A DNA stretch of 64,000 bases from Acidobacteriota bacterium (GTDB taxonomy: Bacteria > Acidobacteriota > Terriglobia > Acidiferrales > UBA7541), in NCBI GenBank assembly GCA_003224085.1, contig QHYK01000047.1, forward strand, positions 62,001 through 126,000, written 5' to 3'. Shown piece by piece: positions 7,348-60,887 of this stretch. Positions within the stretch are counted from its first letter, which is position 1. Each line of letters starts with the position of its first letter. A model generated the notes under the pieces. The model did no database searches. It saw only the letters and a list, made by a program, of their open reading frames with translations, and was not told the origin of the DNA. Both the position numbers and the translations under genes were made by a program.

Positions 7348-9294
<1,947 letters not shown>

Positions 9295-9412
9295 GTTTCC
9301 CTCTCTAATTCCGGAAGCCGCACGCTGCCTCTATCATGCTTTCTTTTTTCGTCCTTTTCCACTCTTCCGGGACAGGCTGTTCGATCCCGAAGAAAGCTGT
9401 CGGTGATTTCTG

Positions 9413-9887
9413 TCAGTGCCGTTGGGGCCGACCAAGCATCCCTATAGTGTTAGATGCAGTCCGAAAGCCAAAGTAATCGGGCTCCAGGGCCACGCGGCGC
9501 TTGCCGAGAAGCACCGCCAGCCCGATGGAACGCGGCCGGCTTTCTGCCAGACGGCGCAGAAGGAAATCCTGCGTCACGCCGCTCGCGAGCACTGCATCCA
9601 CAACCAAAACGCCTCGCCCTTTCAACTCCGGCTGCGAGCCGAACAAGACTTCGCGCCGCGCATGGCCATTGTGATCCACCTCGCGACGTCCTCTCGAACA
9701 AAGTGACAAACCTTGGGCCGTCGATATGCCGGATCAAGTCGGCTGCGAAGACGAAGCCCACGGTCCAGGGTCGCGATCCCATCCGGTCGCCGGCCCCCCG
9801 TACTCGCGGGAGGTTTCTTTGCCCAAGACCGCCACGCGACGGGGCGATGCGCGCGGCAGAATACGTTGCCCCTCTCCGCAAGCTCAA
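9413..9887 (-). pseudogene. Decayed hypoxanthine phosphoribosyltransferase (hpt) remnant
   Basis: Between tilS and ftsH, where hpt is expected. Recognisable pieces lie in different frames: a start-proximal YSAARIA, then GKETSREYGG in another frame, FVFAADLIRHIDGP back in the first, and finally KGRGVLVVDAVLASGVTQDFLLRRL with LEPDYFGF in the third. The PRPP-binding VEDIVDTG-like loop survives only as VDAVLASG, so key acidic residues are lost. At least two or three indels are needed to rebuild a protein. A TTG start overlaps the tilS stop. Either a true pseudogene or, less likely, assembly errors. Confidence 0.75.
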
Positions 9888-11392
9888 AGCTCTTCCTCAG
9901 CGATCACAATCCCCGAGCGGGTCTTCTCATTCGCAGCAAAATCGGCGGCCACCGTAAAGCCGCGGGCCCAAACAAGAACTTCACCGCTCGTCAACACCGG
10001 CCAGCCATCCCGCTCCCATCGGCTGATGTGCTTTTGGTTCAGTAAGCGCTTCAGCTTGTGGGCGTTCTGATGGCCGGAAGGGCGCAACCGATCTCCGGGA
10101 CGCCAGTTGCGCAGGACCAGGGGTGGACGCAACCGCTCGCGGTCCAGGACCATCTCCCTGTGGTTATTTTCCTCTGCCTTGGAAGGCCAGTCAATGACTC
10201 TGAGGCGGAAGACACAACCCAGCTGGGGGACTTTAACGTCCTGCGCGCCGCGGGACAGATCGACGCTGTAAGAAAACTCGCGCCGAGTCGCGCTCGTCTT
10301 TGCTTTTCGGGCCCCGCAGAACACAAGCGCTTCCCGCTCCTTGCGCACTTCCACGCCGCCCGGCAGAAAGAGCGAACTGCCGTTGCGTCCGCTGCGAGCA
10401 AGTTCGAGCAGGGCATCGACGTGGTTTGCGCCTAGTTGCCCGCCCTGTTTTTTCACCCGTTCCACCAGGCCGCGCGCCATTCGCTTGCTCATGGCGATGA
10501 AATGATTCTTCTCTGTGCTCTCAGCGTGGAGTCCCCCCTTCACCGCCTTGGCGAACAAATCAGAGAGGGGAATGCGCAAGGCCCCGTCGCTTTGCAGGGC
10601 AGCGGCGGCCATGCGCTTTTGCAGTAGAGCGCCGAAGAACGCTTCATCTTCACGCGCGAGCTGCGCAAGAGTTGTCAAATGTTCGACGATGGCGGGCTGA
10701 AATTGTTTCTCGAGAAGCGGTAGGAGTTTCTTTCGAATGCGCGCACGCAGTCGCTTGGTGTCACGATTCGTGGCGTCTTCGCGCCAGCTTTGTTTCTTGT
10801 GGCGAAGATAAGCGCGCAATTCCGCGCGGCGAAGGTTCAGAAGCGGCCGAAAAACGGGAGGGGCCTTGGGATGAATGCCGCCGAGCCCGGCGAGGCCGGT
10901 TCCGCGAAGAATGTGGGCGAGCACGGTTTCGGCCTGATCGTCGGCCGTGTGGGCGACGGCGATGCGGTTGCACACTCCGGAGTCGACGAGCGAGCGGAAG
11001 TAATCATAACGGGCGCGGCGCGCGGCGTCTTCGAGATTCGCGCGTTCCTTTTTGGCTTTCTTGCCAACATCAGCGGAGGCGGAATGAAACTCGAGTTTGT
11101 GTTTCGCGGCCAGCTTGGCGACAAAATCTTCATCCGCGTCGGAAGTCTTGCCTCGCAATTTGTGATTGAAGTGCGCCACGCTAGGAACGATTCCGAGCTT
11201 CTCGCGCAATTCCAGCAACAGCAGAAGCAGCGCCACCGAATCTGCGCCGCCAGAAACTGCGACGCCCACACGCTCGCCGGGGCGCGCAAACTCCTGCGTT
11301 TCGATGTGCTGCAACAGTTGTTGGCTCAAAGAAGAGCGCACGGCTGAATGGTTCCGCACCTCTTCTCGCCATCCTAGCAGCCACACGCCCAA
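9884..11392 (-). CDS. tilS: tRNA(Ile)-lysidine synthase
   Basis: Forms lysidine at C34 of tRNA-Ile(CAU), using ATP and lysine. The PP-loop SGGADS is at 47-52, followed by HFNHKLRG and the HTADDQAETVL motif of the family. The C-terminal half carries the TilS substrate-binding region and TilS-C domain (NWRPGDRLRP, LNQKHI, PVL). 502 residues is somewhat long because of the N-terminal extension; a GTG start about 12 codons in is possible. First gene of the tilS-(hpt)-ftsH group. Confidence 0.95.
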   Translation of the reverse strand: MGVWLLGWREEVRNHSAVRSSLSQQLLQHIETQEFARPGERVGVAVSGGADSVALLLLLLELREKLGIVPSVAHFNHKLRGKTSDADEDFVAKLAAKHKLEFHSASADVGKKAKKERANLEDAARRARYDYFRSLVDSGVCNRIAVAHTADDQAETVLAHILRGTGLAGLGGIHPKAPPVFRPLLNLRRAELRAYLRHKKQSWREDATNRDTKRLRARIRKKLLPLLEKQFQPAIVEHLTTLAQLAREDEAFFGALLQKRMAAAALQSDGALRIPLSDLFAKAVKGGLHAESTEKNHFIAMSKRMARGLVERVKKQGGQLGANHVDALLELARSGRNGSSLFLPGGVEVRKEREALVFCGARKAKTSATRREFSYSVDLSRGAQDVKVPQLGCVFRLRVIDWPSKAEENNHREMVLDRERLRPPLVLRNWRPGDRLRPSGHQNAHKLKRLLNQKHISRWERDGWPVLTSGEVLVWARGFTVAADFAANEKTRSGIVIAEEEL

Positions 11393-11546: not shown

Positions 11547-12413
11547 TTACGGAGCGATCGCTCGAGCCAGTGTCCCCCAATCGCCGTTGCGCCAGTCGTT
11601 CCGCGGTTCCGCCGCCGCCCGAGCGAAGGTCCACCATCGCACTCGGTCGTGATCGACGCCAAGCAGGTCTGCAAAACGCCGGATGGTTCCGTGCGGGTCG
11701 GAGAGCAGTCTTTCCTGGCAATTGAGCAGGTGCTGCGTGGCGTCATAGGCGGGATCTCCTACAAACGGTTTGGGATCGATAACCAGCCAGGGTTCGCGTT
11801 CTGCCCGGAGGACGTTGCCAGCGTGCAAGTCCGTCGCCAACAGCGCCTCTCTGGGCGCGCTACGCGGCAGCTGCTCAAACAGCCGCAGACCTTCTCGCAC
11901 CAATCCCGCATCAGGCCAATCGTCCGCGCGCGCCAGCGTCTGTTCGCTCCAAGAAGCCATCAGAGCCGACAAAGGGCGAAAGGGGTGATGTCTGGATGGC
12001 GAGCTCCACAAACGACGCAGCAAACCTGAAACGACCACGTCTTGATCCCACTCGGGCAGCGCGCGCAGGGATGTCCCTGGCTCGCAGCGCTCTAAGAGCA
12101 TGGCATTGAGATTATGGTCGGCCATGAGTAGCCGCACGGTCGGGTCTCCGTTCCAAAAGCGCAGGCCGTAGATTTCGTGCTCTCCCTCCATGTGGGGCAT
12201 ACCGACTTTCAGCACGGCAGGTGTGCCGTCAGCGCGCTGCACAGCTGCCACGTACGAGCAAGTTCCATCCACGCCGTCAAACGGCGCATGGAGCGTCAAT
12301 GACCATCGATGTTGCAGCCCTTGCAGCGTATCAGGCAAACAATCGAGCCACGATGCGCGCTCCGGGGTCTCGCGGCAGGCAGCCGCCAGCCGTTGTGAGA
12401 TTCTCAGCGTCAT
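11547..12413 (-). CDS. Aminoglycoside/hydroxyurea phosphotransferase family kinase (APH(6)-like)
   Basis: About 288 residues from ATG 12413; an upstream in-frame ATG at 12527 would add 38 residues of poor character, and the shorter form matches the 265-290 residue APH(6) family. Family features: AVLKVGMPHMEGEHEIYGLRFW around the ATP-binding Lys/Glu, the catalytic-loop LLATDLHAGNVL with Asp and Asn, and VIDPKPFVGDPAYD with the metal-binding Asp. Relatives phosphorylate streptomycin or related compounds; actual resistance cannot be inferred. It is separated from tilS by 154 bp and lies next to an insertion sequence. Confidence 0.85.
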   Translation of the reverse strand: MTLRISQRLAAACRETPERASWLDCLPDTLQGLQHRWSLTLHAPFDGVDGTCSYVAAVQRADGTPAVLKVGMPHMEGEHEIYGLRFWNGDPTVRLLMADHNLNAMLLERCEPGTSLRALPEWDQDVVVSGLLRRLWSSPSRHHPFRPLSALMASWSEQTLARADDWPDAGLVREGLRLFEQLPRSAPREALLATDLHAGNVLRAEREPWLVIDPKPFVGDPAYDATQHLLNCQERLLSDPHGTIRRFADLLGVDHDRVRWWTFARAAAEPRNDWRNGDWGTLARAIAP

Positions 12414-12613
12414 GCTTCCAATAGTAAGCCTTTCACGGAGACCGAACCTCGCGACACGACATCCCGAGGAAGGCTGTGGAAAACTGCAGAAAAGCGGTAA
12501 AGTGGCGTGCAGCGGTTCCGCATCCAAATATTTTTAGCCGACCAACCATCTGATTCCGTTCATCTTTTGACCTGGGGACGTTTAGGGAGCAAATTCGCAT
12601 TGTATATTTGCCC

Positions 12614-24665: not shown

Positions 24666-24742
24666 GGCGCGGTACCCAAGCGGCCTAAGGGAATGGTCTG
24701 CAAAACCATCATTCGTCGGTTCGAATCCGACCCGCGCCTCCA
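24666..24742 (+). tRNA. tRNA-Cys (GCA), type 1
   Basis: Full cloverleaf: acceptor GGCGCGG/CCGCGCC, anticodon stem ATGGT/ACCAT with loop CTGCAAA, T-arm GTCGG-TTCGAAT-CCGAC, discriminator T and encoded CCA (24740-24742). No good promoter immediately upstream; it may be transcribed from the TATAAT at 24488. Confidence 0.93.
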
Positions 24743-24789
24743 TTATCCAAAAAGGTTATTTCGCGTCTGAAAGAGAAAGCGGCGAAGCA

Positions 24790-24838
24790 CCAGCCTGCAA
24801 AGCTGGCTTAGTGGGTTCGAGTCCCACCGTCACCTCCA
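24790..24838 (+). pseudogene. 3' half of a second-type tRNA-Cys
   Basis: Anticodon stem-loop CCAGC-CTGCAAA-GCTGG, then T-arm GTGGG-TTCGAGT-CCCAC, acceptor CGTCACC, T and CCA. From the variable loop on, it is identical to the intact tRNA-Cys at 60811-60887. No matching D-arm or 5' acceptor strand is found upstream. Confidence 0.7.
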
Positions 24839-24943
24839 ATCTTCTTCTCTAATTTCCCGCCAATGTCTGTTTTTCGCTGAAACGTATACGGCGTTGACTT
24901 CCAATCTTGGCATGGACAGACTTGGAAGCGGGGGCGTGGCCTG

Positions 24944-28391: not shown

Positions 28392-28652
28392 ATGACATCT
28401 CTCCTGACATTAAGACTGGAGCAGAAGACTCGGCAACGCATCGCACGCATAGCCAGCCGCAGGCGAATTTCCACTTCCGAAGTGATACGGGAAGCGATCG
28501 AGGCATGGGTGGAAAGGCAGGAACCGGTGGCCGCGCCCTATGACGCAATGTCTGATTTGATCGGGGTTGTCAACGGTGGGAAGCCAAGGCGCTCGGCGGA
28601 AACAGGTCGTCGCTTTAGAGAAGTCTTAAAGAGTCGGCGGAAACGCCTGTGA
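28392..28652 (+). CDS. Ribbon-helix-helix antitoxin (VapB/CopG-like)
   Basis: 86 residues. The N-terminal strand LLTLRLEQKTRQRIARIA and helix-helix SEVIREAIEAWVERQ form a MetJ/Arc-type RHH DNA-binding domain; the C-terminal basic tail would wrap the toxin. The stop overlaps the toxin start (GTGA), indicating translational coupling. Likely autorepressor at the palindromes upstream. Confidence 0.85.
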   Translation: MTSLLTLRLEQKTRQRIARIASRRRISTSEVIREAIEAWVERQEPVAAPYDAMSDLIGVVNGGKPRRSAETGRRFREVLKSRRKRL

Positions 28653-29053
28653 TTCTGGTGGATGCCGGGCCGCTCGTCGCCTTGGTCGATGCCGATGATC
28701 AATTTCACAAGAAATGTGTCGCCGCCTTGAAGGGGTTACGAGAACCCCTGGTCACTGTTTGGCCTCCGGTGACGGAAGCGATGTACTTGCTGGCCGATTT
28801 GCCCAAAGCCCAAGAAGCTCTCTGGGAGATGCTAGCGCGAGGAGCATTGCAGCTCCTGCCACTCGACCTCGCTGACGTTTCTCGAATCCGCGAACTGATG
28901 GGCAAGTACGCCGACCGCCCGATGGATCTTGCCGATGCGTCACTCATCAGGGTTGCTGAGCGTGAAGGTATCCGAAAAATCTTCACCGTGGACCGCGAGG
29001 ATTTTAGCGTCTACCGTCTTCACGGACGAGTGCGCCCCAACATCATCCCCTGA
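28649..29053 (+). CDS. PIN-domain ribonuclease toxin (VapC-like)
   Basis: 134 residues from GTG 28649. PIN acidic residues visible: Asp in ILVDAGPLVALVD, Glu in VTEAMYLL, Asp in MDLADASLI and Asp in FTVDREDF. VapC toxins cleave tRNA or rRNA; the target here is unknown. Intact, unlike its neighbours, which suits addiction to the island. Confidence 0.88.
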   Translation: MILVDAGPLVALVDADDQFHKKCVAALKGLREPLVTVWPPVTEAMYLLADLPKAQEALWEMLARGALQLLPLDLADVSRIRELMGKYADRPMDLADASLIRVAEREGIRKIFTVDREDFSVYRLHGRVRPNIIP

Positions 29054-29221: not shown

Positions 29222-29623
29222 ATGGAAGCGCGTTCTTTGGGTGACGTGGGTGGTACGCCGGGAGGCTTGGGTCATTTCGTGATCGGTTTCGTCATGGCTT
29301 GCATGGGAGGATACTTCCTGGCGAATCAAGTCAGCGTCGTGGGTTCGTATTGGAGCTTCTACGGGGCAAATACGTTCGGCATCACGCTGGTGCCGATGTT
29401 GCTCGGTGTGGGAATTCTATTTTGGAACGGTCGGAGCCTTGTAGGTTGGATCCTTACAGCAGCTGGGGCTCTTTTCATTCTGGCCGGCGTGATTGCCAAC
29501 ATGCATATTTATTTTCGGCCCGCCAGCCTTTTCAATACTCTCGTGATGTTGATCCTGCTCGTTGGGGGACTTGGGCTGATCGCGCGCGCTTTACGACCTC
29601 ATCCTGCGACCAAGAGTGAATAA
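29222..29623 (+). CDS. Small four-helix membrane protein
   Basis: 133 residues with about four hydrophobic helices (about 17-36, 54-68, 73-90 and 103-121) and a Gly-rich N-terminus (GDVGGTPGGLGHFVIGF). Not assigned to a family. Converges with the ABC operon; no cistron partner. Confidence 0.65.
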   Translation: MEARSLGDVGGTPGGLGHFVIGFVMACMGGYFLANQVSVVGSYWSFYGANTFGITLVPMLLGVGILFWNGRSLVGWILTAAGALFILAGVIANMHIYFRPASLFNTLVMLILLVGGLGLIARALRPHPATKSE

Positions 29624-29700: not shown

Positions 29701-30525
29701 TTATAGCGTCTGGAATCTCTCCTTCACTTCCCGCACAAATTCGAGGAACCTGGGCGAGTTGGTGAGTTCCGGATGCCAGCACAGGTCGCGCTCAATGAGA
29801 TCGTAGGTCTCCTGAATTCGCGCGCCGGGGATGAAGTTTCCGCTAGCGTCGCGATCCCGTCCCATGAGCCACAGGTGATCTGCCACGGTTGCGGCCGCAG
29901 TCACGTCGTGGGTAACGACAATAATAGTGTTGAGCTCGTCGAGGCAGGCAATCTCGCTGATCAATTCGCAGACTTTCGCTTCCATCACAACATCGAGCCC
30001 GGAGAACGGCTCATCCATTAACAAAAAATGTTCGCTGCACAGAAGCTGTTGCGCGATGGCGATTCTTTGCCGCTGGCCGCCGGAAATCTGCGCGGGATAA
30101 AGCTGCGCCTGATCCACCATATCCAGACGCCGCAGATACTTAAGGACCCTTTCATGAGCGGATTCATGATTGTTTTCCATTTGTTTCGCGGCCAGCATCA
30201 AGTTGCTGAAAATCGTGCGATTTTCAAACAAAGGATAATTCTGGGCGACTACGCCCACCATTCCAGCCTTGACCGGGGTCAGCGTAGAATTGACGAGCAC
30301 CTGTCCTGAAGTGGGATGATTCAGCCCCGCGACGATGCGAAAGAGCTGTGTCTTACCGATACCCGAGGGCCCGAGAAAACCGACCACCTGGCCTTGCGTG
30401 CGGTCCTCGCGCACGATGTCGCGAATTTCCGCATTTACGTCTCGGAGAATGACCTTGTCCTCGTACGAAAGGCTGACGTGGTCAATCTTCAGAAGTGTTT
30501 CGCCGTAGGTGCAGCGGTCGGGCAC
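29701..30525 (-). CDS. ABC transporter ATPase (nitrate/taurine-type), last gene of the OmpA-SBP operon
   Basis: 274 residues. Walker A GPSGIGKT at 52-59, signature SGGQRQRIAIAQQL, Walker B LLMDEPFSGLD, and a switch His in VVTHD. The extended Walker B region continues VVMEAKVCELISEIA. It would energise the permease encoded 27 bp upstream. The N-terminus MPDRCTYGETLLKIDHVSLSYEDK is a little longer than usual. Confidence 0.92.
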   Translation of the reverse strand: MPDRCTYGETLLKIDHVSLSYEDKVILRDVNAEIRDIVREDRTQGQVVGFLGPSGIGKTQLFRIVAGLNHPTSGQVLVNSTLTPVKAGMVGVVAQNYPLFENRTIFSNLMLAAKQMENNHESAHERVLKYLRRLDMVDQAQLYPAQISGGQRQRIAIAQQLLCSEHFLLMDEPFSGLDVVMEAKVCELISEIACLDELNTIIVVTHDVTAAATVADHLWLMGRDRDASGNFIPGARIQETYDLIERDLCWHPELTNSPRFLEFVREVKERFQTL

Positions 30526-30552
30526 AGGAAGTCCTCACAAATCCATGAGCTG

Positions 30553-31422
30553 CTATCTTTTTTCAAGCTGCAAATCCGCGTAAGGGAACAGGAATTTCTT
30601 GGACAATCCCAGCGCGTAGTCCTGAAACAGTCCAATCAGCAGAATGGCGATCTGAATCGCAAATACGGCTTCCAGCCGGAAGTGTTTGTTCTGATTCAGC
30701 AACAATGCACCGATACCGCCCTCCGATCGAGAGATGCCTTCGACCATCGTGAGCATCATCCAGCCCATGGCCGCGTTTTGCCGCATAGCATCGAAAGCCG
30801 CGTCTGCTTTGCCGAGGACGATCACTTCCCAAACGACGCGCCACTCACCCATGCGCAATGTGCGGGCCAGGTCAAACTTTTCTTTCGGAATTTGCGCCAC
30901 CACGTCGATCATGCTGGTCACAAAGAAGACCGCCACGCCAAAAACCAAGAGGCTTACCTTTAGCCGGTGCCCGCTGGAAAAAATGATAGTGAAGAAGAAT
31001 GTAAGTCCCACCATACCCAGGAAACGGCCCTTGGAGACGGCCAACGCGATGGGCTGGAACACCGGAACGACTGTGAGATAAGCCAGGCCCAGGGAAATAA
31101 GAGTCGCCCATGCCATGGCCTGCACGTTCAGTAGAAAGCTGACGATAAGCTCCTGGCCGAGTCCCTCATGAGTCCAAAGGTCAACGAAGGCTCTCCACAC
31201 GTCCATCGGTTTGGGCAGAAAAACGTAAGTAGAGGTGGCCCAAACAACCAGAAGCACCGCGACCTGGAAGGTGATGATGAACCGGAACGCAGATTTTGAA
31301 ATCACTCGGTTTGGAAAAAACGCACCGAGAATTTCGCGCCAGAAGCCCGCTGCTGCCGAATGGCTTGCGGCCGGTGCTGCATTTGTTCGCATCGTTCCGA
31401 CCGCCGGCTTCACGGGATTCAC
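30553..31422 (-). CDS. ABC transporter permease (NitT/TauT-like)
   Basis: 289 residues with about six transmembrane helices. A binding-protein-dependent permease coupling loop is visible around RTLRMGEWRVVWEVIVLGKADAAFDAMRQN (EAA-like). N-terminal cytosolic stretch of about 45 residues. Starts 9 bp after the OmpA-fused binding protein, so the two are almost certainly co-translated partners. Confidence 0.88.
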   Translation of the reverse strand: MNPVKPAVGTMRTNAAPAASHSAAAGFWREILGAFFPNRVISKSAFRFIITFQVAVLLVVWATSTYVFLPKPMDVWRAFVDLWTHEGLGQELIVSFLLNVQAMAWATLISLGLAYLTVVPVFQPIALAVSKGRFLGMVGLTFFFTIIFSSGHRLKVSLLVFGVAVFFVTSMIDVVAQIPKEKFDLARTLRMGEWRVVWEVIVLGKADAAFDAMRQNAAMGWMMLTMVEGISRSEGGIGALLLNQNKHFRLEAVFAIQIAILLIGLFQDYALGLSKKFLFPYADLQLEKR

Positions 31423-31431
31423 GCGTGCTCC

Positions 31432-33279
31432 CTATTCCTTGCCTGACAGAATGATTTCCACGCGGCGGTTTCTGGCCCGGCCCTCCGCGGTGGCGTTTGA
31501 CGCGATGGGCTTGGAGTCGCCGTAAGCTTGGATGCGGAAACGGTTGTCCGGGAAGTTCGCGGGAGCCTTTCTCTGCAGCCAGTCTCTGACTGCCTGGGCG
31601 CGCCGCATCGCCAAATCCATATTCCCATCGTGGGTGCCCATGTTGTCCGTGTGTCCATTCAAAGTGACGAACAACGCGCCGGCTATCGCTAGGTCGTCCT
31701 TGATCTCGTACATCTTGCGTTCGCCCTCAGGGGTGAATGAGGCTTGACCTGTGGCGAATTCAATGCTCCAGTCACGCTTCGAAACGACTGCGCCTGTATC
31801 GCCACTGGAACTGAAGCTCGCGACATCGGCCTCGGCCCCAGTCTGCGAAAGCATCGAAGAAGCACCCAGAACATACGAAGTGTCGAGAATTTCTTTAACG
31901 TCAGGAATCTTGTTGGCGTCCTTGAACAGTTCCGGGTATTGCTGCGTCGCAATGTTTCCGAACACGGTGTAAGTGGAACGGAAATTGTTGTTGGCGCCGG
32001 GCTGCAACCCGAACAGCAGGAGATTGTCGTTCAGGTTGTTAACCGCGGAGCCGCCAAGCTCCACCAGGTTACCCGTCTTATCCTGTTCGCGAGTTCCCAG
32101 GTAGTATTTCAGCCAGTAGTCGCCGTTTTGCTCGTTGTAAACTTTGGCGCTGATCGCCGCGGCGCGCTTAAGCACTTCTGGGAAGGCCTTGAGTTGGTCG
32201 GCCGCTTCAAAGCTGGCTGCCAGCATTCCCTGTACTTCATTGCGATGGTCCTGGTTGAATTTCTTGATGCCAATAATGACGTCTGGCATCTGCGAGCGAT
32301 ATTGCTTCGAAGACACGATGGAGACGAGTCCGCCCCGTCCGTGGGCCACGTTCACGTCACCTGGCGTCCAGGTGACCACGCCGTTCACACACACGTTCTT
32401 GGATTCCCCGGTCAGCCGGCCATCATGTACGACTTTGCGGTCTTCACAGGTATTTGCATTATAGATTTCCGCGGCCTTGATGTAGTCCGGCGCGTTGACC
32501 CAATTCAAAGCATCGGGGTCGTACGTTTTTTCGTCAGGATTATTCTTGATTTGGTTGTCTGCCGCCCACTTCATAGCGATATTCCAATCGCCGTCGCGAA
32601 GTACCCCCGCCACCAGTCCACCTTTGGCGGCCTGCGGGTCAGCTTTCCATTGTGGCGGCCCCATCAGTTTGTCTTCCCCTCGCGAATATCCTGTAGAGCC
32701 GATGACTTGTGCAATGTATTCACCTGCGCCATTGTCCAGCTTCTTGAGTTGCGGATTGACCGCGGCGAAAAACTGCCCCGAGCCGTCGCCCATGATGAGG
32801 ACGTAGTTTGCGCCCGCGGCACACTGGTTTGAACCGTCGTGGAGCTCTTTCGCGCAGGCAATCAAGTCGTTCTGCATTTGACTGGTATCGTCCTGGCGGA
32901 TCAGCTTCAGGTTGACGTTATGCTTTTCCATCAGGCTGTTGCGCGTCGTCTCCGGACCGCCATTGGCGTAGATATAGTTCATCTGCGCGTTCCAAGCCCA
33001 TATTTCGGTGCGAATCAATGGGGCCTTCACGGAAGCGGAAGCCGCCTCCGGGAAAGGCGCAGGCTCGACGTTGGCGACGAGAGCTTCCTTCAAGTCCGGC
33101 AAAGCGGCTTTCGATGGAATGAGAGCCTTGGCGATGCCCGGCGCAGGAATCCAGCCGCGGCTCACAGCCGTGCGGAAACCGAAGAAAAGAACTGCCCCCA
33201 CGAACAGAAGCAGAATAATCTTTGCTCCGGGCTTCAACCGGTGCCCCGTTGGTGGTGTGGAGATTTTATTGTCAAACAT
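31432..33279 (-). CDS. Membrane-anchored substrate-binding protein fused to an OmpA peptidoglycan-binding domain
   Basis: 615 residues. One uncleaved-looking transmembrane helix (about 20-38); a periplasmic solute-binding module about 85-480 (QDDTSQMQNDLIACAKELHDG, YVLIMGDGSGQFF, LNWVNAPDYIKAAEIYNA, and so on) of the NMT1/nitrate-binding or PstS-like type; then an OmpA-like domain about 500-615 with GHTDNMGTHDG, LAMRRAQAVRDWL and ARNRRVEI, the Asp/Arg pattern that binds diaminopimelate. So one protein would sit in the inner membrane, capture solute for the ABC permease next door, and grip peptidoglycan. An unusual architecture for a transporter. Confidence 0.85.
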   Translation of the reverse strand: MFDNKISTPPTGHRLKPGAKIILLLFVGAVLFFGFRTAVSRGWIPAPGIAKALIPSKAALPDLKEALVANVEPAPFPEAASASVKAPLIRTEIWAWNAQMNYIYANGGPETTRNSLMEKHNVNLKLIRQDDTSQMQNDLIACAKELHDGSNQCAAGANYVLIMGDGSGQFFAAVNPQLKKLDNGAGEYIAQVIGSTGYSRGEDKLMGPPQWKADPQAAKGGLVAGVLRDGDWNIAMKWAADNQIKNNPDEKTYDPDALNWVNAPDYIKAAEIYNANTCEDRKVVHDGRLTGESKNVCVNGVVTWTPGDVNVAHGRGGLVSIVSSKQYRSQMPDVIIGIKKFNQDHRNEVQGMLAASFEAADQLKAFPEVLKRAAAISAKVYNEQNGDYWLKYYLGTREQDKTGNLVELGGSAVNNLNDNLLLFGLQPGANNNFRSTYTVFGNIATQQYPELFKDANKIPDVKEILDTSYVLGASSMLSQTGAEADVASFSSSGDTGAVVSKRDWSIEFATGQASFTPEGERKMYEIKDDLAIAGALFVTLNGHTDNMGTHDGNMDLAMRRAQAVRDWLQRKAPANFPDNRFRIQAYGDSKPIASNATAEGRARNRRVEIILSGKE

Positions 33280-33303
33280 ACTGATCTTCCCTCCGCCTAA
33301 TCG

Positions 33304-34335
33304 TTACTTGATCAAATCGCTGTAATCGTCCTTCTTGTTGGTCGGCGCGGCCGAAGTTTGGTCCCCCAAGCCTCCCGGCACCGCCGCCACCGAGGCAGGC
33401 AAGAGTTTCTGCTGGAATTCCGTCAGTTGCTTGACGGCCTCGTCGTTGATCGCGCCGGTTTCTAGGTCCATGTTGGTCATCAGCTTATTGGCAAGACGGT
33501 TGAAATCTTCCATCTCTCCCAGCATTTGCCCGGCATCGTCGGCCAGGTATTCCAGCGTCTGATCGTAAATCTGGTTGGCCACTGGATCGCCGCGGAAAAT
33601 CTTCTTGGCCGCCTGGAAGACGGAGTAGGCCTTTTTCAGCGCCTTCCGCCGCATCTCTTCTTCGCTAACGCGGTTCTCCTTGTCGGTGACCTGGAACTCC
33701 GCCGTAGCCCTCCAGCGGATGAGCTGGTCATATAGAATCTTCAGCTTGTCGCGCAAGTCGGTGAGCGACTTGTCGATGTTGATGAGGCTCGCGGCGTGCC
33801 GCTGGTTCGTAACTTTGGCGGACATATATTGCTGTTGATCCAGGGCGGTAAGGCCGCCGGCGGCAATTTTCTTGTCGGCTTGATTGGCCAGGGCCATGCT
33901 GTGCTCGGCTTCTTTCTGGTTCGTGTCAATCTGGTTCTGGAGCGTGCGGATCGAGCCATTCAGGTTGCCAAGCTGTTCATCCATGATCGCAAGATTTTTT
34001 TTCATCTCCGCGATGTAGTTCTTGAGGATGCCGATGGGATCCAGTTCGATGAAAAGTCCGGTGAAATACCGGATGACGCTCTGAAAAATAAGCTTCCCCA
34101 GCGTCAAAACGCGCTTGTCCGTGACGATGAAGATCAGCAGCAGAATGGCTCCAATCAGAATTGCGAGGTGCAGTGTATCGGTCGCCGCCGCGATCAAGAA
34201 CGGAAGGATCTGCACGAATCCATAAGCCGCCGCGATGCCCGCGAGGACCAGCACGACTTTCCCGACGGTTCCTTCCGGCCGTTGCCAGAAATTCTTCAAG
34301 CCCTGCATTACAGGGGAACCTGGTGTGGTTGCCAT
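33304..34335 (-). CDS. Membrane protein with PspA-like coiled coil
   Basis: 343 residues. Two N-terminal transmembrane helices (about 26-49 and 54-71), then a long coiled coil (about 100-260: IAEMKKNLAIMDEQLGNLNGSIRTLQNQID, and more) reminiscent of PspA/IM30, and a flexible tail. Gap of 24 bp to the OmpA-fusion gene. Could scaffold the transporter or sense envelope stress. Function inferred only from shape. Confidence 0.7.
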   Translation of the reverse strand: MATTPGSPVMQGLKNFWQRPEGTVGKVVLVLAGIAAAYGFVQILPFLIAAATDTLHLAILIGAILLLIFIVTDKRVLTLGKLIFQSVIRYFTGLFIELDPIGILKNYIAEMKKNLAIMDEQLGNLNGSIRTLQNQIDTNQKEAEHSMALANQADKKIAAGGLTALDQQQYMSAKVTNQRHAASLINIDKSLTDLRDKLKILYDQLIRWRATAEFQVTDKENRVSEEEMRRKALKKAYSVFQAAKKIFRGDPVANQIYDQTLEYLADDAGQMLGEMEDFNRLANKLMTNMDLETGAINDEAVKQLTEFQQKLLPASVAAVPGGLGDQTSAAPTNKKDDYSDLIK

Positions 34336-34344
34336 GGCGTCTCC

Positions 34345-34971
34345 CTATCCCAAAATCGTTTCAAATTCCTTGCGTTGCTGCTGAATCTCGGCGCGCCGCC
34401 GCTCCAGCGCCGCGGCAAAGTTGCCCTTGGCTTCCTGCAGCTTTGCGCGTGATATCTCGGTCTGCGATTGCAGGGACTTCATCTGCTGCTGCAAGCTGGC
34501 AATCTCTTTTTGTTTTTGCTGAATGGCCTCGTTGATGTCGCTGACTTGGGCAATTTTCGCGTCAACTTCCGTTCGTGATACGTCCTCGGTTTGCTTGTTG
34601 AAGGTGTTCGCCGAGGAATTCAGAACATTCAACAAAGCGTCAAAGCCCTTCAAAATCGCGTCTTTCGTCAAGCCGCCCTGCGACTGCGCGGTGGCGAGTG
34701 CCGCTTTGTACCGCAATGCTTTGTCACTGATGACCGAAGAGAGCGGGGCCGCATACGCTTCGATCTTGGCTAGTTCCGGAACGGCGGAGAGGTCCGTCTG
34801 CTTGGCAAGCCGCGCATAGAACTGGTTGTCGCGCGTCCCCGTGGAAACGTATGCAGGAGCGAGTTCGAGGGACCGGTTCGCCGTCGGGCCGGGCGATGGT
34901 TTGGCAGGCTGCTGCGCCGCCTGCGGTTCCTCTTCAAAAATCGCCTTCTTGATAAGGTCCATGAAGGGCAT
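34345..34971 (-). CDS. Soluble coiled-coil protein, first gene of the operon
   Basis: 208 residues. Pro/Ala-rich N-terminus, no transmembrane segment, and a C-terminal coiled coil (about 130-205: INEAIQQKQKEIASLQQQMKSLQSQ, then RAKLQEAKGNFAAALERRRAEIQQQ). Nine bases separate it from the PspA-like gene. Likely a cytoplasmic partner of the next protein. No family recognised. Confidence 0.65.
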   Translation of the reverse strand: MPFMDLIKKAIFEEEPQAAQQPAKPSPGPTANRSLELAPAYVSTGTRDNQFYARLAKQTDLSAVPELAKIEAYAAPLSSVISDKALRYKAALATAQSQGGLTKDAILKGFDALLNVLNSSANTFNKQTEDVSRTEVDAKIAQVSDINEAIQQKQKEIASLQQQMKSLQSQTEISRAKLQEAKGNFAAALERRRAEIQQQRKEFETILG

Positions 34972-35336
34972 CTGTCACTCCCTTGCTATTTCAATCCCGT
35001 TCCAGCGGCGGGGATACACACAGCTTTACTGTTGCGAGGCCCGGCCGGACTGGAGGTTTCGTGTCAAATCGGTCCACGAATCCGCACGCATTGTATCCTA
35101 TAGATAAGGGAACCCTTGCATTGTACCCGGGATACGCGGCCATCGTAAGACTGGGCCTGCTCGCCTTTCAACAAGGAAATTGCCGACGTAGCGCATTCAA
35201 TAAACTGGCAATCCTCGCCTCGATGACCTATTAAACCGCCTTTAGGATGAGGATGCAATTCAGCTACAATGCACACTTTCACTGTTCAAAATGATGCCGT
35301 TCTTGAACTGACAAACTTTCGACGAGGAACTAGCCT
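34972..35336. promoter_or_regulatory. Divergent control region between the ABC/OmpA operon and CII-like gene
   Basis: 365 bp without a gene. Contains the palindrome AAGGG-AA-CCCTT (35106-35117) nested inside GTATCC (35093-35098) / GGATAC (35130-35135), and two GCATTGTAYCC direct repeats (from about 35088 and 35118). These are plausible operator sites for the regulator transcribed away from the operon. No confident -35/-10 pair. Confidence 0.4.
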
Positions 35337-35801
35337 GTGCCTGCAAAGACGCTACCGGCGGTATTGAGCCAGATTGTCGAAGCCAAAGCCGAATACGATA
35401 CCCGGCTCTTGGCCCAGCAGATCGGAACGAACTACCGCTCTCTGATGTATTGGCTCAGAGGTGATCGCCCCATCCCTGCGGAGCTGCTGCCTCGGATTTG
35501 CGTCCTGCTGAAGAATTTCGAACCTCTGGATGTTCTCGAATCACAGGCGGGAAGAGTGGCATTCAAGATTCCAGATCCGCAACAGACTTCCGAGAAAGAG
35601 TTCTTGGTTATTTCCAACCTCATGAAAGACGTTGGTTCGGCACTGGAGAGCATTGCAACGACGCTAGCTGACGGGGTTGTGGAAGAGAATGAGTTAAACG
35701 CGACGATCCCGAAGCTGGAAGCCGTAATTCGAGAATGTGCATCGGTCAAATACCTGCTTGAGACTCTCTACAAAAACAGAAAACGGAAGATGAAAAAGTA
35801 G
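35337..35801 (+). CDS. Phage CII-like transcriptional regulator (Phage_CP76-type)
   Basis: 154 residues from GTG 35337 with GAGGA 7 bp before. N-terminal helix-turn-helix-like region (LAQQIGTNYRSLMYWLRGDRPIPAELLPRICVLL) and a helical oligomerisation tail (LMKDVGSALESIATTLADGVVEENELNATI) resembling the CII-related regulators of P2-like and other phages. A trace of phage ancestry next to the right attachment remnant; it may control the divergent ABC/OmpA operon. Confidence 0.65.
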   Translation: MPAKTLPAVLSQIVEAKAEYDTRLLAQQIGTNYRSLMYWLRGDRPIPAELLPRICVLLKNFEPLDVLESQAGRVAFKIPDPQQTSEKEFLVISNLMKDVGSALESIATTLADGVVEENELNATIPKLEAVIRECASVKYLLETLYKNRKRKMKK

Positions 35802-60810: not shown

Positions 60811-60887
60811 GGTGGCGATGCCAAAGTGGTCGAGGCGTCGGCCTGCAAAGCCGATCTTAGTGGGTTCGAGTCCCACCGTCACCTCCA
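60811..60887 (+). tRNA. tRNA-Cys (GCA), type 2
   Basis: Full cloverleaf: acceptor GGTGGCG/CGTCACC (one GU), D-arm GCC...GGC, anticodon stem TCGGC/GCCGA with loop CTGCAAA, T-arm GTGGG-TTCGAGT-CCCAC, discriminator T, encoded CCA. Sequence differs widely from the type 1 gene at 24666. Its 3' half is duplicated at 24790-24838. Confidence 0.93.

Follow-up and report, generated by a model that had tools for sequence, protein, structure and literature searches.

The five clustered genes analysed here, which lie within a window of 64,000 nucleotides (the whole stretch of acidobacterial DNA under study), are understood, with a probability of about one half, as a trans-envelope system whose reservoir is found mainly in uncultivated and often huge phages, and which one acidobacterial genus has acquired and keeps as a movable cassette under selection. 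The five ORFs share the minus strand and are separated by gaps of 9, 24, 9 and 27 bp (Table 1); the coordinates thus confirm what the first-pass annotation had described as five same-strand genes at intervals of 9–27 bp. Its proposal of a single transcription-unit-like set with conserved gene order is supported by the viral loci: of 129 distinct IMG/VR viral contigs (74 + 55), 106 have the five genes colinear on one strand, a recurrence of gene order far beyond chance. The viral genes need not form one transcript, since they are often split by other ORFs (median gap between the binding-protein and permease genes, 131 bp).

Table 1. Features of the cassette and its surroundings (feature, position in the window, strand, basis of assignment)
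CC, 208-aa coiled-coil protein, first gene of the operon	34345..34971	-	ORF, iterative-profile homologs
PSP, 343-aa TM-anchored PspA/Vipp1-like protein	33304..34335	-	PspA_IM30 8e-4 (below cut-off), AlphaFold model
PSP residues 20-72, two N-terminal hydrophobic helices	34120..34278	-	prediction
PSP residues 100-247, long helical hairpin	33595..34038	-	model, Vipp1 superposition
SBP-OmpA, solute-binding protein of 615 aa with membrane anchor and peptidoglycan-binding tail	31432..33279	-	AlphaFold, PDB matches
SBP-OmpA residues 17-40, TM anchor helix	33160..33231	-	AlphaFold
SBP-OmpA residues 83-480, solute-binding domain of NitT/TauT (TauA/NrtA/CmpA) type	31840..33033	-	PDB matches
SBP-OmpA residues 499-613, OmpA-like peptidoglycan-binding domain	31441..31785	-	Pfam, TagL match
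ABC importer permease, NitT/TauT-like	30553..31422	-	BPD_transp_1 0.005 (below cut-off), SaoP/NtrB models
ABC ATPase, complete catalytic motifs	29701..30525	-	ABC_tran 4e-25
CII-like (Phage_CP76) regulator, divergent	35337..35801	+	Pfam 1.3e-8
Minimal homologous cassette common to sister genomes with differing flanks	29705..35790	.	blastn

Structure prediction for the binding protein SBP-OmpA (AlphaFold, pLDDT 89, pTM 0.85) yields a single polypeptide that combines a TM helix, a solute-binding domain and, at its C-terminus, an OmpA domain, in agreement with its earlier description as both membrane-anchored and OmpA-tailed, and the predicted folds together favour the envelope-spanning transporter architecture that had been suggested with it. 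As modelled, the binding module is a solute-binding fold of the TauA/NrtA/CmpA type set between the N-terminal TM helix and the peptidoglycan-binding domain. The closest PDB folds are TauA (6ssy, Z 27.4 over 290 residues), CmpA (24.9), NrtA (24.2) and SsuA (23.1), a similarity that does not by itself give the type of substrate. Residues W96, S199, D231, N247, N259, W304 and D308 are invariant in all 72 viral copies of the first viral set. Peptidoglycan binding by the OmpA domain is suggested by its Pfam match above cut-off (residues 508-605, 2e-18), by the structural match to TagL in a PDB search (Z 18.5) and by the DAP-binding Asp and Arg of the NGHTD..R motif (D545 and R560), which every viral copy having the region retains (69-70 of 70 copies). 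The protein shares its TM helix and OmpA-like peptidoglycan-binding domain with wall-anchored proteins of the MotB/ZorB/TssL type, unlike which it carries a full solute-binding domain in between and has no proton-channel partner.

For the permease and the ATPase, NitT/TauT-type transport may be proposed from sequence. The ATPase scores above the cut-off of Pfam ABC_tran and presents Walker A and B, signature, Q- and H-loops, with the Walker A lysine, Walker B D/E, Q-loop glutamine and H-loop histidine invariant in 66 of 66 viral copies; catalytic residues are kept across lineages down to about 30% identity. The permease remains below the curated cut-off of BPD_transp_1 (17 bits, cut-off 26.4) and matches the NCBIfam SaoP and NtrB models weakly (1e-9 and 0.003), and in the viral copies its EAA-like region is conserved above 85% at E199, G204 and R214. 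NitT/TauT importers (TauABC, SsuABC, NrtABCD, CmpABCD) have the binding-protein fold (Z 23-27), an ATPase and probably a type I permease in common with the window, in which, by contrast, permease and binding protein fall below or outside known Pfam families, the binding protein is anchored at both ends by TM helix and OmpA domain, and PspA-like and coiled-coil proteins are encoded alongside. Plain auxiliary nutrient uptake is, of the competing explanations, the one that survives best, and we regard it as unlikely: the operon would be a phage- and host-borne NitT/TauT-type importer of sulfonate, nitrate, bicarbonate or a similar solute, and the PspA-like and coiled-coil proteins would do no more than prevent leakage caused by overexpressed membrane protein. 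The fold nearest to TauA, CmpA, NrtA and SsuA, the complete ATPase motifs and the further binding-protein-type genes near viral copies (NMT1_3/TAXI in seven loci; a TM-PBP-OmpA protein in L104 and L105) are all in its favour. However, a soluble or lipid-anchored binding protein would suffice for uptake; the wall anchor is left unexplained, as is the kept order of the two coiled-coil genes across very divergent phages, and the fold match names no substrate.

The second gene product, PSP, had been called PspA-like with two helices, and its model indeed comprises two N-terminal hydrophobic helices (predicted at residues 20-52 and 54-72 with low to moderate confidence) and a long helical hairpin (pLDDT above 90). 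The hairpin superposes on Vipp1 over 133 residues at 2.3 A (6zvs) and 138 residues at 1.6 A (8qhx), and Vipp1 chains rank first and make up five of the top seven hits in the structural search, at Z 11.9-12.7, which is within the range that chance helical-hairpin matches reach. The curated cut-off of PspA_IM30 is not reached (19.5 bits compared to 33.9) and Vipp1 is found in a PDB profile search at E 0.73 only; PSP is therefore named PspA-like, not PspA. Its long hairpin, superposable on Vipp1, resembles that of the PspA/Vipp1 family (ESCRT-III superfamily), from which PSP departs in having a pair of TM helices at the N-terminus, a weak score in sequence and no pspBC/F neighbours. PspA-type scaffolding by PSP may be envisaged from the model. 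In Armatimonadota and some of the Myxococcota another TM protein takes the place of PSP, so the system can do without a PspA fold. The first gene encodes CC, with a short basic/amphipathic N-terminus (FMDLIKKAIFEEEP), a proline-rich linker, a helical region and a C-terminal coiled coil; no informative Pfam family was found for it. Homologs found by iterative profile stand at the corresponding place in the majority of viral loci and occur also in loci of Bacteroidota, Armatimonadota and Myxococcota. Alignment of the PSP profile with CC by hhalign found nothing, and the idea of CC as a PspA homolog was rejected.

The view that no standard system of this composition is known needs correcting. Ravi et al. 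2024 (mSystems, PMC11237479), in the passage concerned, describe bacterial operons of PspA/TM-Snf7, AAA+, ABC ATPase, permease and PBPB-OmpA (e.g., OGG56892.1) and suggest that membrane remodelling is connected with the transport of solutes. Common to those operons and the window are a PspA/Snf7-TM protein (PspA-like in the window), the ABC ATPase, the permease and the PBP-OmpA protein, a likeness in gene content; the AAA+ ATPase of the published operon has no counterpart in the window cassette. The passages concerned, in which a single sentence treats such operons in bacteria, do not mention phages, conservation of gene order, mobility or a CII-like regulator. A full-text literature search returned no account of the operon in phages, which is weak evidence since most subscription papers lay outside the search; in the Jug-phage preprint, a pspA-like gene beside terD represents a different context. 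ATP-driven membrane remodelling, in which the ABC ATPase would act through the anchored complex on an ESCRT-III/PspA-type polymer, as Vps4 does on Snf7, is an improbable explanation, and so are the purposes it might serve in huge phages (vesicle or replication-compartment formation, or lysis timing). The PspA/Vipp1-like hairpin speaks for it, and an AAA ATPase that recurs about 5.8 kb downstream in six viral loci only would fit the AAA+ association in the passage by Ravi et al., but the window cassette and most viral loci are without an AAA+ gene, and a pure remodelling machine would have no need of a highly conserved solute-binding domain.

Among bacteria the distribution is patchy: within the window's family, 5 of 89 genomes, all belonging to one genus, have the operon, as do 11 of 396 Acidobacteriota and 15 of 151 genomes of the Armatimonadota sample. 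The tree of the binding protein, also when computed on a careful subset, and that of permease plus ATPase both assign the window clade to a set of 20 rows, 15 of them viral and 5 bacterial (SH-aLRT 99% in each), and a topology uniting it with the main clade of bacteria fails the AU test (p = 1.3e-4). The gene trees are unrooted, and a transfer from phage to bacterium is suggested by the nesting of the window's copies inside a viral clade together with patchiness. Values of dN/dS of 0.02-0.16 indicate purifying selection on the operon. The window's genus seems to have acquired the operon from the phage pool and to keep it intact. A movable location finds support in the relatives' neighbourhoods, compared by DNA matches: the chromosomal place differs in each of the four sister genomes, and blastn homology covers window positions 35790-29705 in L012 and 35782-29705 in L013, with no homology in the flanks. 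The tRNA island proposed at first pass stands in so far as a tRNA-Cys lies 5 kb away, whereas in three of the four relatives the flanks examined contain no tRNA; a tRNA-borne island as a general property was rejected, as L014 is the only relative with a tRNA next to the operon. Also rejected was a prophage remnant, there being no phage structural genes among those scanned around the cassette and strong purifying selection on it.

The phage-type regulator reported beside the operon is real and belongs to the movable cassette: the divergent gene matches Phage_CP76/CII, adjoins the operon in three of the four relatives (L011, L012, L013) and shows dN/dS of 0.05-0.08, while searches of L014 and of the viral loci revealed no homolog. 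Regulation of the operon by this CII-like protein may be supposed. PspA responds to phage-induced membrane stress. That response, together with phage carriage, patchy occurrence in hosts and movement of the cassette with a phage-type regulator, could point to superinfection exclusion or defence, with the wall-tethered complex blocking DNA entry by competing phages or sensing envelope damage, and co-opted in the bacterium against phages. We consider this quite improbable as the overall explanation, for neither a toxin nor an effector is among the components, conservation of the solute-binding site would be left unexplained, and PADLOC identified no defence-specific component, only generic matches of the ATPase (mad3), the OmpA domain (MotB/ZorB) and a coiled coil. 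Superinfection exclusion or stress sensing by the operon is a possible function; host anti-phage defence is not supported, because PADLOC gives no specific match and the phages themselves are the main carriers.

The phage connection, for its part, proved stronger than could have been known from the window, the operon being colinear in the majority of its viral contigs. Most of these contigs are incomplete, and the classification of some may be wrong; many measure 300-578 kb and carry terminase genes. The large terminase subunit was detected, with some matches weak, in 36 of 59 contigs or records tested; of the 25 that reach 300 kb or more, 21 have it; phrog_2 is the better terminase test, PF03237 (terminase) and PF04984 (sheath) being too narrow for phage identity. 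In a 436-kb contig, major head protein, protease, portal and terminase are close to the operon. The GenBank huge phage LR756500.1 (462 kb, unannotated) has both operon and terminase and is the sole carrier in INPHARED. No RpoB was found in 40 viral contigs or in LR756500.1, and in plasmids only the OmpA domain was matched, a query without OmpA finding none. The 478-kb contig L052, which clusters with Armatimonadota, shows the gene order of that phylum and has no terminase, looks bacterial. An ordinary bacterial operon misplaced in viral bins, for which L052 and the other contigs lacking a terminase match could be cited, is very hard to credit in view of the terminase frequency among the largest contigs, the head module beside the operon and LR756500.1, and the terminase and head genes make a bacterial origin unlikely for most of the large contigs.

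Returning to the preferred reading of a phage-derived trans-envelope system, we propose that permease and ATPase would constitute an ABC importer of the NitT/TauT type whose solute-binding subunit, instead of being free or lipid-anchored, is fixed to the inner membrane by its TM helix and to the peptidoglycan by its OmpA domain; with the subunit so attached, the transporter would be held in place where membrane and wall meet. In the cytoplasm, PSP with its TM anchor may, together with the coiled-coil protein CC, provide a membrane-protecting scaffold around the transporter. During a long infection by a huge phage, the system could import a small solute and at the same time hold the inner membrane to the wall and prevent it from leaking. 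A physical complex, a role in infection and the coupling of transport to membrane stabilisation are what we infer from these elements taken together. The wider proposition is that a conserved trans-envelope complex, driven by ATP and carried by huge phages in soil and water, would fasten the inner membrane of the host to its wall, couple solute movement to an ESCRT-III/PspA-like membrane scaffold and be needed for long infections, and that bacteria have captured and kept it; this is offered tentatively, with the odds against it.

Lastly, few multi-gene membrane machines are known to us that occur in such a number of divergent phage genomes, many of them very large. The combination of a complete ABC importer, a wall-anchored binding protein, a PspA-like scaffold and kept residues points to a need for host-envelope management during infection. 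The bacterial captures, that of the present acidobacterial genus included, provide a copy amenable to experiments and an example of phage genes passing into chromosomes. If the PspA part is confirmed, the ESCRT-III superfamily would enter phage biology.

The five-gene operon of the window is understood, in our rating, as a variant of a bacterial composition that is known and uncharacterised; what surprises is its distribution in phages. The first-pass annotation had known of no standard transporter composed in this way, a claim that fails for bacteria because Ravi et al. 2024 (PMC11237479) devote one sentence to bacterial operons that combine PspA and TM-Snf7 homologs with an AAA+ ATPase, an ABC ATPase, a permease and a PBPB-OmpA protein, and suggest that these connect membrane remodelling with transport. 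No mention of the operon in phages was found in full-text literature, of which coverage was incomplete. The five open reading frames were confirmed where that annotation had placed them; all run on the minus strand, with gaps of 9, 24, 9 and 27 bp. They are transcribed in the order CC (208-aa coiled-coil protein), PSP (343-aa PspA-like protein), SBP-OmpA (615-aa binding protein), permease and ABC ATPase. Pfam recognises the ATPase at 4e-25 and the OmpA domain of the binding protein at 2e-18, scores the permease and PSP under its curated cut-offs, and gives no match whatever for the solute-binding domain.

The binding protein was detected in 8 viral and 23 bacterial contigs by single-sequence search and in 76, then 64, viral loci by profile searches; with repeats removed, 129 distinct viral contigs or records remained (74 and 55). 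Conservation of the gene order, whose absence had been named beforehand as a point of refutation, held: CC-PSP-SBP-permease-ATPase, all on one strand, is found in 106 of the 129 (59/74 in the set that includes the GenBank huge phage LR756500.1, 47/55 in the second) and is maintained in Bacteroidota copies, with contig ends interrupting most of the viral loci that are not colinear. The operon-bearing viral contigs reach 578 kb. Of 59 contigs or records tested, 36 have a match to the terminase large subunit, and among those of at least 300 kb the figure is 21 of 25, some matches being weak; a 436-kb contig has major head protein, head protease, portal and terminase near the operon. RpoB is absent from all 40 viral contigs checked and from LR756500.1 (462 kb, unannotated), the only GenBank phage in which the set was found; none of the plasmids searched carries the set. 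One 478-kb contig labelled viral in IMG/VR (L052, IMGVR_UViG_3300044957_000763) is probably a misclassified bacterial contig, since its gene order is Armatimonadota-like, its tree position lies inside a bacterial clade, with Armatimonadota, and it shows no terminase match. In another contig (L163), the terminase match runs through 8 TGA and 3 TAG codons, pointing either to a damaged gene or to a phage with a recoded genetic code.

Among the viral ATPases compared, the lysine of Walker A, the Asp/Glu of Walker B and the residues of the Q-loop and H-loop never vary (66/66), SBP residues W96, S199, D231, N247, N259, W304 and D308 are identical in 72/72 viral copies, and the OmpA Asp545/Arg560 pair is present in each viral copy covering the region. 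The second viral set retains Walker A and the signature SGG in 49/49 ATPases, and WTPGD with the OmpA motif in 53/55 SBPs. Each operon gene gives a dN/dS of 0.02-0.16 between the window and four relatives, a range that also includes the CII-like regulator (three relatives possessing it). Judged by sequence, these look like genes working in phages and bacteria alike.

The structure of SBP-OmpA, predicted from an alignment of 50 relatives (pLDDT 89, pTM 0.85), has a two-lobe domain superposing best on TauA (Z 27.4 over 290 residues), followed by CmpA (Z 24.9), NrtA (Z 24.2) and SsuA (Z 23.1), and a tail superposing on the TagL peptidoglycan-binding domain (Z 18.5). The model also has a TM helix near the N-terminus, so that the protein is, on its predicted fold, a NitT/TauT-type SBP anchored at both ends. 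The PSP model combines two hydrophobic N-terminal helices with a confident long hairpin, whose best structural matches are Vipp1 chains (Z up to 12.7; 8qhx, 138 residues at 1.6 A); hairpins of such length can match by chance, hence the name PspA-like.

Among bacteria the set is patchy, with 11 of 396 Acidobacteriota genomes and 15 of 151 Armatimonadota genomes carrying it; in the window's family it occurs in 5/89, every one in the window's own genus. In Armatimonadota and some Myxococcota, SBP-permease-ATPase and CC are retained but a different TM protein takes the place of PSP; in Armatimonadota this is an unrelated-looking protein of ~300 aa matching no Pfam family.

The SBP tree places the window together with the four sister genomes within a supported set of 20 rows, 15 viral and 5 bacterial (99% SH-aLRT), and the permease-ATPase tree places the window in a set of the same composition. 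A careful subset SBP tree supports the clade with the window at 100/99 and its core at 96/93. The AU test rejects both a tree that joins the window clade to the main bacterial clade (p 1.3e-4) and one that puts the bacteria into a single clade (p 5e-70). Homology to the sister genomes ends at the limits of the operon, extended in three of the four by the divergent CII-like gene and in two by the 133-aa gene at 29222-29623; past this shared stretch each genome has flanks of its own, and the genes that neighbour it in the window lie on other contigs in the sisters. The simplest reading is transfer from phages to this genus, then movement as a cassette; the direction is inferred, as the trees are unrooted.

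Around the cassette, a 133-aa membrane protein gene without a Pfam family follows in the window and two sisters; the other two have similar DNA in another place. A VapBC-like pair (RHH antitoxin, PIN toxin) downstream sits in a variable stretch that the sisters lack beside the operon. Further off, a truncated tRNA-like copy follows a tRNA-Cys within ~35 bp and matches the 3' part of a second, different tRNA-Cys (86% over 66 bp); the arrangement looks like the attachment-site scar of an integrative element. Downstream of viral operons, two loci encode a further TM-PBP-OmpA protein, similar in its N-terminal anchor and with a binding domain of PstS-like type (PBP_like_2), and a TAXI/NMT1_3-type solute-binding protein recurs ~6 kb away in one viral clade.

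Positions of features in the window and in other loci carrying the set (L-numbers)
Feature	Sequence	Position	Remarks
Five-gene operon	window	29701-34971	minus strand
CII-like regulator	window	35337-35801	plus strand
133-aa membrane protein	window	29222-29623	also L011, L014
VapBC-like pair	window	28392-29053	
tRNA-Cys plus truncated copy	window	24666-24839	
Truncated copy	window	24776-24839	
Different tRNA-Cys	window	60811-60887	
Terminase match	L163 (135 kb)	9187-10962	
Second TM-PBP-OmpA	L104	6543-7904	
Second TM-PBP-OmpA	L105	11597-12958	
TAXI/NMT1_3-type protein	L106	13845-15092	homologs in L063, L078, L082, L095, L099
AAA ATPase	L061	13125-14567	PF00004 in L061; homologs in L010, L037, L042, L086, L087
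TM protein in PSP position	L024 (Armatimonadota)	11582-12502	also L021, L026, L018
TM helix	SBP-OmpA	residues 17-40	predicted structure
Two-lobe domain	SBP-OmpA	residues ~83-480	predicted structure
OmpA domain	SBP-OmpA	residues ~499-613	predicted structure

Lastly, the anatomy of the gene set implies an ABC importer, formed by permease and ATPase, whose binding subunit would be held by membrane and wall, and which would be joined with a TM-anchored PspA-like scaffold and its coiled-coil partner. Rival readings are plain nutrient uptake and an ESCRT-III-like remodelling machine, the latter favoured by an AAA ATPase gene that six viral contigs have ~5.8 kb downstream of their operon, which recalls the AAA+ association in the cited sentence of Ravi et al. 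2024. Superinfection exclusion is a further rival. Most likely, in our view, the system transports a small solute and also holds the inner membrane sealed and tethered in long infections, and the bacterial copy would do the same job in response to stress or as directed by the CII-like regulator.
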